From Maricaulis parjimensis (GTDB lineage Bacteria; Pseudomonadota; Alphaproteobacteria; Caulobacterales; Maricaulaceae), in NCBI RefSeq assembly GCF_016817355.1, contig NZ_JADOTT010000003.1:1-64000 (forward strand): DNA of 64,000 bases. Reading direction: 5' to 3'. Below are positions 244 through 6,476 of this stretch, piece after piece. Position 1 is the stretch's first letter, and each line of letters starts with the position of its first letter. A program made the position numbers and the translations under genes. The notes below the pieces were generated by a model that had not been told where the DNA came from, ran no database searches, and saw only the letters and a list, made by a program, of their open reading frames with translations.

Positions 244-280
244 AAAAGAAAAAACCCCGGTCCATCAAGGACCGGGGTTT
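244..280 (-). terminator. Rho-independent terminator of the predicted sRNA
   Basis: Perfect 12-bp stem (252-263 with 269-280), 5-nt loop, then TTTCTTTT on the minus strand. No protein gene on the minus strand lies upstream to use it, which is the main reason to suspect an RNA gene. Confidence 0.75.
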
Positions 281-438
281 GAAGTATGAAGCGGGCGGGG
301 TAGCCCGAATTAGATGGCGCCGGACCCATTCAAGGGGGAGGAGACGGGGTCCGGCGCGATGTCGCACGCCAATATGGGGAGGAGAGGGCGTGCGAAAACT
401 CAGAAGGGGATTTCTGAGGCGCAGCGTCTCCGCCGCGT
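244..438 (-). ncRNA. Predicted small RNA with two anti-Shine-Dalgarno loops
   Basis: On the minus strand four hairpins follow one another with no credible reading frame. Stem 399-405/412-418 (7 bp) has loop ATCCCC. Stem 362-370/387-395 (9 bp, perfect) has a loop containing CTCCTCCCC. Stem 317-327/347-357 (11 bp, perfect) has a loop containing CTCCTCCCCC. Stem 252-263/269-280 (12 bp, perfect) is followed by TTTCTTTT, a Rho-independent terminator. A weak -10-like TATAGA lies at 445-450, so the 5' end near 438 is a guess. CCUCCUCCC-type loops are known from several alphaproteobacterial trans-acting sRNA families, which base-pair with ribosome-binding sites; membership of any named family is inference. 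Confidence 0.65.
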
Positions 439-661: not shown

Positions 662-2065
662 ATGTTCAATTTCGGACGCGGCAATGCGGCTGTCGCCATG
701 ACGGACTGCGAAGAGGCGGAGACGGTGTCCAAGCCGGTGATGCAGCCTGTTGGTCACAATGGCTGGTCGCAGGATCTGATCCATGCCCTGCACGCCCTGG
801 AAGCGGGTGAGGTTCCGGCGATTGGCGATCTGCCGGCGGATATCGCTGCGGCGGTGGATTCCCTGTCTGAAAGCCTGAAGCTGCGCGACCGGTCCGGCCT
901 GTCCCGCGCGGTAAGCTTCTCCATGGAAGCCAGTGTCGCCATGGCCTCGGTTTCGCGCGCCACGGGCGATATCCGCGAGGTCGACCAGCGGGCCCAATCC
1001 ATGTCGGCGGCGATCGAGGAGCTGGATGCCTCCATCCGCCAGATCAGCGGATTGTCGGAAACGGCGTCCGGCACCTTGCGCGATGGCGTCGATGAGTCCG
1101 GCCAGGGGCTGGAGGATGTGAAACAGTCCGCCCAGCAGATGGAGCGGATCAGCGCGGCCTATCAGGACATTTCCAACCGGGTCGAGGCGCTGGATGCGGC
1201 CTCCCAGCAGATCTCCGAAATCCTCGAGACGATTTCCGCCATTGCCGGCCAGACCAATCTTCTCGCCCTGAATGCCACGATTGAAGCCGCCCGTGCGGGC
1301 GAGGCCGGGCGCGGTTTTGCCGTGGTGGCCGGTGAGGTGAAGGCTCTTTCGGCCCAGACCGAGAAAGCCACGGGCGATATCCGCGAGCGGATCGAGCGCC
1401 TGCATGGCGAGGTCGTGGGGATTGTCCACGCGGTCGACGGGTCCGTCGCCGCGGTGGACAAGGGCATGTCAGCGGCCGGCCGCGCCGCCGAAGGCGTGCA
1501 GAAGGGCGTCAGCTATGTCCAGGAGAGCGCCAGCCTGGTTGATGAGATCGCCAAGCTGATGAGCGAACAGGCCCAGGCCACGAGCGAGCTGGCCAATGGC
1601 GTCGCTGGTGTCGCCCAGGCCGCCCACAATGCCAGCGGCCGGACCGAGGAAGTCATCGAGGCCGTTGCGGCGTCCGAGCGCGTGGTCGAGCAGAGCTTTG
1701 CGGAATATGACGCGCGCACGATTGATGATTACGTGCTCTTCCGCGCCAAGTCGGACCATCTGATCTGGAAGAAGCGTCTCGCCGAGGTCCTGGTGGGCCG
1801 CGAAGCGATTGATCCGTCGGAGCTTGCGGATCACCACGCCTGCCGCCTGGGCAAATGGTATGACCAGGTCGAGGATGCCTCCCTGTTGGGGCATCCGGCC
1901 TTTGAGGCGCTGGAAGCACCGCACGCCCGTGTCCATGCAGAGGGCAAGGAAGCGGCCCGCTGCTGCAAGGCCGGCGACAAGCTGGGCGCCATGGCTGCCT
2001 ATGACCGGATGGACAAGGCGTCAGCCGAAGTAGTCAAGCTGCTGGATGCGCTGCTGAACCGCTAG
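662..2065 (+). CDS. Cytoplasmic methyl-accepting chemotaxis protein with C-terminal CZB zinc-binding domain
   Basis: A soluble chemoreceptor of 467 residues without signal peptide or membrane segments. The central signalling tip carries the typical [20 protein letters not shown] motif, flanked by long coiled-coil helices. The C-terminal domain has the CZB pattern: a histidine in the [13 protein letters not shown] helix, then [12 protein letters not shown], then [12 protein letters not shown], so zinc or zinc-linked redox sensing coupled to CheA is the likely role. I start at ATG 662, preceded by a GGGGG stretch; the frame stays open upstream to about 314 but that part has no recognisable domain and runs over an sRNA locus. 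The stop overlaps the stop of the convergent LysR gene within one CTAG. Confidence 0.9.
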
Positions 2066-2955
2066 CTCTCCCAGCGCCGGGCCTGTTCGATCAGGAAGTC
2101 GCGGAAGGCGACGATCCGGCGCGAACCGCGCAGCTCGCTGGGATAGACGAAATAGACCTCGAAATCGGGCCCTTCCACATCGGGAAGGATCTCGACCAGA
2201 TTGGCATTCTCGCGCGCGACATAATCGGGCAGGGCGGCGACGCCCATGCCCGCCTCCACAGCTTTCATCACGCCATAGATCGTATTCACTTCGATCACGG
2301 CCGGGCGCGGGGCCTCGCCTTCGGGGCGGCCGACCTTGGCGGCCCAGTCCAGGCCCGGGATCGGAGCCAGTTGTGGCGGGCCGTAATGGATGATCGGGTG
2401 ATCATCGAGGTCTTCCGGCGTTTGCGGCGTGCCATGCTTTTCCAGATAGTCATGGCTGGCATAGAGGTGCTGGCGCACGGACATCAGCTTGCGCTGGACC
2501 AGGTCATTCTGGGTGGAGGGCCAGGGGCGGATGCCGACCTCGGCTTCCAGCCCGGCGAGATCCAGCTCGTGATCGTCCAGCATCAGGCGGATGCGGATGC
2601 CGGGATACTGGATGTGAAACTCTTCCAGCCGGCGAGCCAGCCAGATCGCGCCGAGCGCGGTGGGGGCTGTGACCTTCAACTCGCCGGAGGGCTCATCGCG
2701 GGCATCGTGCACGCGGGCCTCGGCGATGGCGACCTTGCCATGGATCTCGTGGGCTGCCTCGTAGAGGAGATTGCCCGGCTCGGTGGGGATCAGGCCGCGC
2801 GCATGGCGGTGGAAGAGGGTGACGCCGAGATCATCTTCCAGGGCGGCAATCTGGCGCGATACGGCCGATTGCGACAGGCCCAGCATTTCGGCGGCCTTGG
2901 TGAGTGAGCCGGCCATTGCGGCGGCGTGGAAGGTTTTCAGCTTGTCCCAGTCCAT
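2062..2955 (-). CDS. LysR family transcriptional regulator
   Basis: A 297-residue LysR regulator. Residues 1-60 form the winged helix-turn-helix ([20 protein letters not shown]), and about 90-290 the periplasmic-binding-protein-like effector domain ([20 protein letters not shown] onward). The start at 2955 ([10 protein letters not shown]) is preceded by a G-rich ribosome site and removes an unconvincing 31-residue extension. The aldo/keto reductase gene lies 125 bp upstream on the same strand but a hairpin separates them, so this gene probably has its own promoter. The target is unknown; the neighbouring reductase is one candidate. It converges with the chemoreceptor gene through a shared CTAG. 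Confidence 0.92.
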
Positions 2956-5531: not shown

Positions 5532-6476
5532 CTATTCCAGCCCGGCCAGATAACGCTCGGCTTCCAGAGCGGCCATGCAGCCCATGCCGGCCGCGGTGAC
5601 GGCCTGGCGGTAGACATCATCGGTGACGTCACCGGCGGCGAAGACGCCCGGAATCGCGGTCTTGGGCGTGCCGGCTTCCACCTCCAGATAACCGCCGTCC
5701 TTGGTCGGCAGCTGGTCGATGAAGAGTTCGGTGGCCGGGGCGTGGCCGATGGCGACAAAGAAGCCGTGGGCCGGGATGTCGGTCGTTTCGCCGGTCTTGA
5801 CGTTCTTCACACGGACGCCGGTGACGCCGGGCGGATCCATCTCGCCCAGGACTTCCTCGACGGCGCTGTCCCAGACGATCTCGACTTTTTCATTCTTGAA
5901 CAGGCGTTCCTGCATCACCTTCTCCGCGCGCAGGTTGTCGCGGCGGTGCACCAGGGTGACCTTGGAGGCGAAATTGGTGAGGAAGAGGGCTTCCTCCACG
6001 GCGGTATTGCCGCCGCCGACCACGACGACTTCCTTGCCGCGATAGAAGAACCCGTCACAGGTCGCGCAGGCGGAGACGCCAAAGCCCTGGAATTTCTGCT
6101 CGCTCTCCAGGCCCAGCCATTTGGCCTGGGCGCCGGTGGCGATGATCACACTGTCGGCGGTGTAGGTGGTGCCGCTATCGCCCTTGAGCACGAAGGGGCG
6201 CGTTTTGAGGTCGGCTTCGACGATGATGTCGGACACCATTTCCGTGCCGACCTTTTCGGCCTGTTCGCGCATCTGTTCCATCAGCCAGGGACCCTGGATG
6301 ACATCGGCGAAGCCGGGATAATTCTCGACTTCCGTGGTGATGGTCAGCTGGCCACCCGGCTGCAGGCCGGCGATCAGGACCGGTTCCAGCATCGCGCGGG
6401 CGGCATAGATGGCGGCGGTATAGCCGGCAGCGCCGGAGCCGATGATGATCAGGCGCGAGTGACGCGTCTCGGACAT
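5532..6476 (-). CDS. trxB: Thioredoxin-disulfide reductase
   Basis: FAD-dependent, NADPH-using reductase that keeps thioredoxin reduced in the cytoplasm. 314 residues, the normal size. Seen: FAD-binding GSGAAG at 13-18, redox-active CATC at 137-140 (SACATCDGFFY), the NADPH-binding GGGNTAVEEALFL region around 155, and the C-terminal FAD segment GVFAAGDVTDDVYRQAVTAA. The start MSETRHSRLIIIGSG is unambiguous. Downstream lies a 130-bp gap containing a possible hairpin; the phosphatase-like gene is upstream on the same strand at a distance of 106 bp. Confidence 0.97.
   Translation of the reverse strand: MSETRHSRLIIIGSGAAGYTAAIYAARAMLEPVLIAGLQPGGQLTITTEVENYPGFADVIQGPWLMEQMREQAEKVGTEMVSDIIVEADLKTRPFVLKGDSGTTYTADSVIIATGAQAKWLGLESEQKFQGFGVSACATCDGFFYRGKEVVVVGGGNTAVEEALFLTNFASKVTLVHRRDNLRAEKVMQERLFKNEKVEIVWDSAVEEVLGEMDPPGVTGVRVKNVKTGETTDIPAHGFFVAIGHAPATELFIDQLPTKDGGYLEVEAGTPKTAIPGVFAAGDVTDDVYRQAVTAAGMGCMAALEAERYLAGLE

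Follow-up and report, generated by a model that had tools for sequence, protein, structure and literature searches.

The window, by which we mean the whole 64,000-nt stretch of Maricaulis parjimensis DNA analyzed here, carries close to its left end a probable standalone small RNA (sRNA) of about 198 nt, located on the minus strand between positions 244 and about 442 and possessing its own terminator. Its 5′ end is predicted at 441–443 from the position of a -10-like hexamer. The minus strand of positions 230–450 folds at -100 kcal/mol, compared with a mean of -66.1 kcal/mol (sd 4.3) for 200 dinucleotide shuffles, none of which equaled it (z = -7.95). Fold and alignment delineate a 5′-terminal hairpin (421–436), an upstream hairpin with a UCCCC-rich loop (399–418), a small GGGC hairpin (292–307) and an intrinsic terminator with a 12-bp stem and a U tail (244–280). 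Between them lie two hairpins that expose the anti-Shine-Dalgarno (aSD) sequence CUCCUCCCC in the loop, aSD hairpin 1 at 364–393 (motif at 376–384 in plus-strand coordinates) and aSD hairpin 2 at 317–357 (335–343). Beyond the 3′ end of the sRNA the contig stops after 243 bases, and the gene downstream is convergent in six of eight relatives (recognized by eye; the other two are L003 and L006). At one locus (L014, genome G025) the convergent gene after the sRNA looks Dps-like by eye. A preliminary description of this DNA had proposed a small RNA with two aSD loops and an intrinsic terminator on the minus strand, with no adjoining protein gene for that terminator to serve; both claims are supported, the former by the fold, by covariation and by the loops in 12 of 12 aligned copies. 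The hairpins at 421–436 and 292–307 are missing from its list of stems, and the regulator link, the promoter box and the relatives are additions beyond it.

The neighboring gene, on the opposite strand (662–2065, +), encodes a chemotaxis receptor (MCP), recognized as an open reading frame with a family match, and G001 and G004 have a 57% identical MCP at the corresponding position. We chose position 662 as its start. The frame itself (314–2065, +) extends upstream without a stop as far as an ATG at 314, across the complement of the sRNA, and automatic annotation may place the MCP start inside the sRNA locus. Next follows, at 2062–2955 (-), a LysR-type gene for a cysteine-free protein of 297 aa, which PDB and Ciceribacter matches point out as the lsrB/vtlR orthologue. 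The usual partner of lsrB, the thioredoxin reductase gene trxB (TIGR01292 above cut-off), is located at 5532–6476 (-) with two genes between it and lsrB; in many relatives the two adjoin.

The best PDB match of the LysR gene product, at 275 bits (next entry 106), is 9hh1, identified through PMC11975290 as LsrB of Agrobacterium tumefaciens. Its best match in Ciceribacter lividus scored 277.5 bits at 43% identity (next 113.9), and the reverse comparison, made against the window gene and two of its own paralogues only, gave 271 bits versus 110 and 101. In Ciceribacter, trxB immediately precedes the lsrB gene, and an AbcR RNA (αr15, 114 bits) and an ArsR-like gene follow it, the layout that passages of PMC7486931 describe for Agrobacterium. 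In a tree with an open fork, the LsrB-like rows stood apart from four paralogues with support of 81/91. Reciprocal best match and trxB neighborhood identify the window gene as an orthologue of LsrB/VtlR, an activator of AbcR1 and NfeR1 in rhizobia according to passages of PMC8844928, PMC7486931, PMC10746234 and PMC7143759.

One LsrB-like match per genome was found in 77 of the 79 genomes of the window's family, and matches with E ≤ 1e-65 occurred in 108 of 190 genomes of the class, with three genomes having more than one. Across the class, trxB lies upstream at 26 of 29 inspected lsrB loci (one of them a partial match), and 23 of the 29 proteins are cysteine-free. The redox-active pair of A. 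tumefaciens LsrB, C144/C273, of which C273 is required for peroxide resistance in the passages on it in PMC11975290, is absent from the window protein, which has no cysteine at all. The proteins of 10 congeners likewise have none, that of L014 has one, and of the 11 other family members in the tree set two are cysteine-free, while nine carry one or two cysteines. Since LsrB is without cysteine here, the Agrobacterium thiol switch cannot be its input.

Upstream of the predicted start, the minus strand holds a -10-like hexamer GCATAT (448–453) and, 17 bases from it, a weak -35-like hexamer CTTCTG (471–476), both found by eye from the alignment. Farther upstream lie a conserved stretch GCATAACTGACAT (489–501) with the LsrB/VtlR consensus GCAT-N3-TG-N3-T and a second conserved stretch TGCATGGCGAGAATG (520–534), perhaps a further half-site. 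The consensus comes from passages of PMC8844928 and PMC7486931, which place the VtlR box at -61 to -49 of the S. meliloti abcR1 promoter (PabcR1), before CTTGAC-N17-CTATAT; when the last base of the -10 hexamer is numbered -7, the window box lies at about -60 to -48, before CTTCTG-N17-GCATAT. The box of the Ciceribacter AbcR1 promoter is itself GCATGCCAGACAT. The TG of the exact box occurs in 6 of the 12 aligned copies (CG in five, AG in one), a relaxed form in all 12 and also in five loci of genus g5 without a nearby LysR gene; both strands of the 64-kb window together hold 11 exact boxes. A ChvI reading of the TGACAT within the box was set aside in favor of the VtlR box, whose consensus is matched exactly and at the distance given in the literature.

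Clear copies of the sRNA were found by DNA search of 61 genomes, the own genome included, in 10 of 18 congeners, together with one partial copy in another genus; with the window these form a 12-row alignment. Standard pairs fill 97.3% of its pair cells against a shuffled mean of 92.7% (0 of 500 shuffles equal) and further pair types, at 20, show no excess over the shuffled mean of 22.5 (497 of 500 shuffles as high), figures that are no probabilities because the rows share kinship. Sliding the helix partners cuts pairing to 28.1–45.1%. Changes on both sides affect 10 of 43 pairs: four of seven in aSD hairpin 1, two of 11 in aSD hairpin 2 (nine pairs invariant), three of nine in the terminator helix, where 100% of cells are paired, and none in the small GGGC hairpin. 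The weakest helix is the upstream hairpin at 399–418, with 89.3% of cells paired. CTCCTCCC occurs twice per copy in all 12 rows, and the CUCCUCCC of both loops is invariant.

A covariance model built on the three hairpins in the middle of the sRNA (cut-off E ≤ 0.01) matched 34 of 299 genomes of the order. Thirty of the resulting loci were inspected: a LysR gene is present at 19, one more is the window itself, two have an MCP gene between the LysR gene and the sRNA, and five, of genus g5, combine hairpin and box with no LysR gene within 1.5 kb upstream. Three loci of family f5 (L060, L062, L065) were rejected; they have neither a LysR gene nor CUCCUCCC loops and resemble a different element. 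Model matches in f2/f3 (G065, G095, G203, G206) lie outside the inspected loci. DNA search and model combined place the sRNA in 14 of the 18 congeners; in the other four the DNA search gave no sRNA match, the one in G012 being confined to the terminator. At g5 and g14 loci a shorter variant has a single aSD hairpin.

A second conserved C-rich multi-hairpin element was seen at about 400–530 of locus L268 (G014), with its own-genome copy outside the window (G000:C1:545092–545216). It has loops CCCCCC, CCCCUCCC and CUCCUCCCCC and a conserved stretch upstream, is matched at the DNA level in the own genome and in 18 of 18 congeners, and gave no above-threshold Rfam match. It is possibly another sRNA outside Rfam.

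The linkage of aSD hairpins to lsrB was assessed at 77 lsrB loci of the family, picked by lsrB and not by the RNA, by scanning 900 nt downstream. A hairpin with an aSD loop follows on the same strand at 38 of the 77, compared with 3 of 77 in the opposite-strand control, and such an lsrB locus exists in 14 of 19 genera; 39 loci have no such hairpin by the test used. The window was scored as a miss because the MCP gene intervenes, at least one of the 38 hits, L211, is spurious, L210 has no downstream sequence, and five of the seven genera with no or few hits were seen in the census scan only. In many relatives the sRNA begins some 150–250 bases after lsrB on the same strand. In other orders, 17 of 29 lsrB loci (L165–L191) have CCTCCCTG(T/A) downstream, often within ACGTCTCCCAGACGTGAAGCCTCCCTGTTxGACT followed by a terminator, with sub-threshold likeness to SorX, SorY and suhB; an Rfam scan over threshold of 20 of the 29 class loci gave no match. 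At L179 and L190 several consecutive aSD hairpins follow lsrB in sets hundreds of bases apart, which suggests tandem sRNAs.

Over gathering scores, Rfam recognized a single tRNA in the window and nothing else. With lowered thresholds, the top matches in positions 1–900 were αr14 (RF02344; 30.7 bits, gathering score 58.8), 6C (30.3, 47) and CcsR1 (RF02791; 28.0, 65.3). The preliminary description had likened the RNA to families with CCUCCUCCC loops and proposed an Rfam covariance search; the likeness is borne out as a resemblance to αr14 and CcsR1, with neither reaching its gathering score. 6C, an actinobacterial family, was dropped as below threshold, as were anti-hemB, suhB and others. The αr14 trait of three hairpins with an identical CCUCCUCCC loop is absent, the sRNA having two CUCCUCCC loops: the exact CCUCCUCCC nonamer occurs nowhere in the window copy and once in 5 of the 12 copies, CUCCUCCC twice in all 12. 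Another αr14 trait, an upstream LsrB-type site, is present at the sequence level at 489–501; Hfq independence is a further trait of that family. Three own-genome αr14 matches (L030, L033, L038) appear as terminators behind genes and were rejected, and four weaker ones (≤23.2 bits) lie outside those inspected. AbcR/αr15 (RF02345; gathering score 40 bits) had no match in the window and none in 100 genomes of the order, a search in which none of its control genomes matched, the positive control being the separate scan of Ciceribacter. The αr15 trait of adjoining lsrB/vtlR is seen in relatives, where the sRNA lies directly downstream; in the window the MCP gene intervenes. Members of the cuckoo RNA family consist of two to four adjacent hairpins, each with CCUCCUCCC in its loop; the sRNA has two adjacent aSD hairpins, but with CUCCUCCC in place of the exact nonamer, and may or may not belong there. 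Related text is found in section 2.7 of PMC3927594. By the tests made, the sRNA appears to be a cuckoo/αr14-like aSD RNA and not a member of αr14, αr15 or CcsR1; among the matches listed in a search of open-licence papers, we found no description of it.

Several characterized RNAs invite comparison. NfeR1 of Sinorhizobium meliloti (αr14), which LsrB activates through an upstream site and which targets transport mRNAs (passages of PMC10746234 and PMC7143759), likewise has aSD motifs in hairpin loops, but these are three identical CCUCCUCCC loops, whereas the sRNA combines its two CUCCUCCC loops with additional hairpins and a separate terminator. By eye, the Ciceribacter αr14 copy reads GCAT-N6-CATGATG-N31-CTATAT where the window reads GCAT-N6-CATGATG-N31-GCATAT. 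AbcR1 (αr15) is described in passages of PMC8844928, PMC7486931 and PMC7143759 as lying next to lsrB/vtlR and trxB, with an LsrB box near -60, aSD motifs and transport targets; the sRNA shares the neighborhood, the box near -60, the aSD motifs and, as predicted, transport targets, but differs in sequence and hairpins. The CcsR1–4/cuckoo RNAs also expose aSD loops in adjacent hairpins, but they share a transcript with a DUF1127 protein, driven by an RpoHI/HII promoter (passages of PMC10253847). No sign of such an arrangement was noticed here, where the gene order observed has lsrB, and the MCP gene, upstream. ChvR of Caulobacter crescentus represses a TonB-dependent receptor, a target type predicted for the sRNA; it is under ChvI-ChvG, lies upstream of recF and is reported, in passages of PMC6237742, without conservation outside C. 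crescentus. SisA–D (αR8), also of C. crescentus, are sRNAs with an aSD-type seed that repress many mRNAs (passages of PMC12559287), but the seed is a single-stranded UUUCCUCCCU, the promoter motif is not common to the sRNA, and one copy adjoins an N-formylglutamate amidohydrolase gene, unlike the sRNA.

Ribosome-binding sites complementary to the loops are few. The pattern GGGAGGAG-N3-10-ATG has 14 sites in the own genome versus 2 for the reversed pattern, and a frame of at least 90 residues begins at nine of the 14. A Pfam scan of six yielded a sugar transporter, a GcvT-like protein, a DctP-type solute-binding protein, a TonB-plug protein, a sigma-70 region-4 fragment, taken for an internal start, and a lipoprotein (no above-cut-off Pfam match, lyase-like by eye); L073, L081 and L083 are outside the scan results. 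Exact complementarity to the sRNA extends over at most 12 bases at the DctP-type and lipoprotein sites, 11 at the sugar transporter, 10 at the GcvT-like and 9 at the TonB-plug site. The DctP-type, lipoprotein and TonB-plug genes lie within 27 kb of one another (G000:C10:53635, 55188 and 80317), and this region of about 53–80 kb is perhaps one uptake island. In the ten congeners, GGGAGGAGA-N2-9-ATG has 50 sites versus 4 reversed; three of the 50 are simply the complement of the sRNA itself. The site of the TonB-dependent receptor is kept in 10 of the 11 genomes of the genus (G009 lacks it, and the G007 frame is interrupted after 106 residues), that of the lipoprotein in six and that of a TonB-like protein, assigned by eye with an N-terminal part lacking a Pfam match, in five.

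As a control, the Shine-Dalgarno sequence AAGGAGA gave 69 sites versus 8 reversed. Of 30 with loci, 29 gave a frame, mostly housekeeping where recognized by eye; a Pfam scan of ten frames gave matches for seven, including one outer-membrane efflux protein but no nutrient uptake gene. The loop-complementary sites lean to uptake genes, in classes that were judged after the hits had been seen, partly by eye, and in small numbers. Duplex energies were excluded as proof, being circular for sites chosen by motif, and strong Shine-Dalgarno sites can persist for translation alone, which counts against the target reading. The preliminary description had expected a global regulator with a stress or envelope role. 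The 14 own-genome sites, about five of them at convincing gene starts, speak against the first; a role in nutrient uptake or the envelope fits the predicted targets, while stress is unsupported, the nearby LsrB being cysteine-free.

Taking together the structure and its covariation, the invariant loops, the terminator, the promoter box and the LsrB orthologue as read from the sequence, we assign a probability of roughly 0.64 to an LsrB-activated, trans-acting aSD sRNA of about 198 nt that blocks the translation of uptake genes. LsrB, a LysR-type activator, would bind the GCAT-N3-TG-N3-T box about 60 bases before the start and recruit RNA polymerase to the weak sigma-70 promoter, from which the sRNA would be transcribed. 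Through its two CUCCUCCCC loops the sRNA would then base-pair with a few mRNAs at their GGGAGGAG-type ribosome-binding sites, most of these mRNAs encoding envelope functions in nutrient uptake (a TonB-dependent receptor, a TRAP-type solute-binding protein, a sugar transporter and a secreted lipoprotein). This pairing would block their translation, in a mode of action like that of AbcR1 and NfeR1.

We consider it unlikely that the locus encodes a cuckoo/CcsR-type stress sRNA, controlled by RpoH or another regulator such as ChvI, and that its proximity to lsrB is incidental. The resemblance to CcsR1 and αr14, the transcription of the R. sphaeroides ccaF1-CcsR operon from an RpoHI/RpoHII promoter (passages of PMC10253847) and the five g5 loci without a LysR gene in the 1.5 kb upstream would suit such an RNA; the same five loci, however, keep the relaxed VtlR-type box, as do all 12 copies, the box lies at the published distance, and aSD hairpins are linked to lsrB at 38 versus 3 of 77 loci. 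The same-strand position 150–250 bases after lsrB in many relatives could also mean that the hairpins have no promoter of their own and form the 3′ untranslated region of lsrB mRNA, with or without processing. This is improbable, since an opposite-strand MCP gene intervenes in the window, G001 and G004, a conserved -10 hexamer, box and upstream stretch precede the sRNA, and the g5 copies do without a LysR gene within 1.5 kb. Likewise improbable is a decoy for ribosomes or an RNA sponge that does not bind mRNA starts: the Caulobacter RNA CrfA, which sponges aSD-type sRNAs (passages of PMC12559287), indicates that RNA-RNA traffic at such seeds exists, but the sRNA has 9–12 bases of complementarity to a few start sites, one of which is kept in 10 of 11 genomes. 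Compensatory changes, invariant loops and a same-strand terminator with a U tail make functionless or untranscribed inverted repeats, or a merely bidirectional terminator, the most far-fetched explanation.

Beyond the window, we tentatively raise, as a possibility that falls short of an even chance, that much of the Alphaproteobacteria inherited a trxB-lsrB-aSD-sRNA module from a common ancestor. At the outset LsrB would have been devoted to activating an aSD sRNA that restrains nutrient uptake, and would have had no thiol switch; AbcR1, NfeR1 and the redox cysteines would have come later, and the downstream RNA would have been repeatedly remodeled, giving two CUCCUCCC hairpins in the genus of the window, a single one in sister genera and a SorX/αr8-like 3′ module in other orders. 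New is the proposed link of this aSD sRNA to an LsrB-type regulator, by which a C-rich sRNA outside Rfam gains a predicted activator and a short target list. If LsrB drives the sRNA, regulator and RNA would form one old module that is open to study in free-living bacteria without a host, and rhizobial LsrB may have acquired its redox role secondarily.
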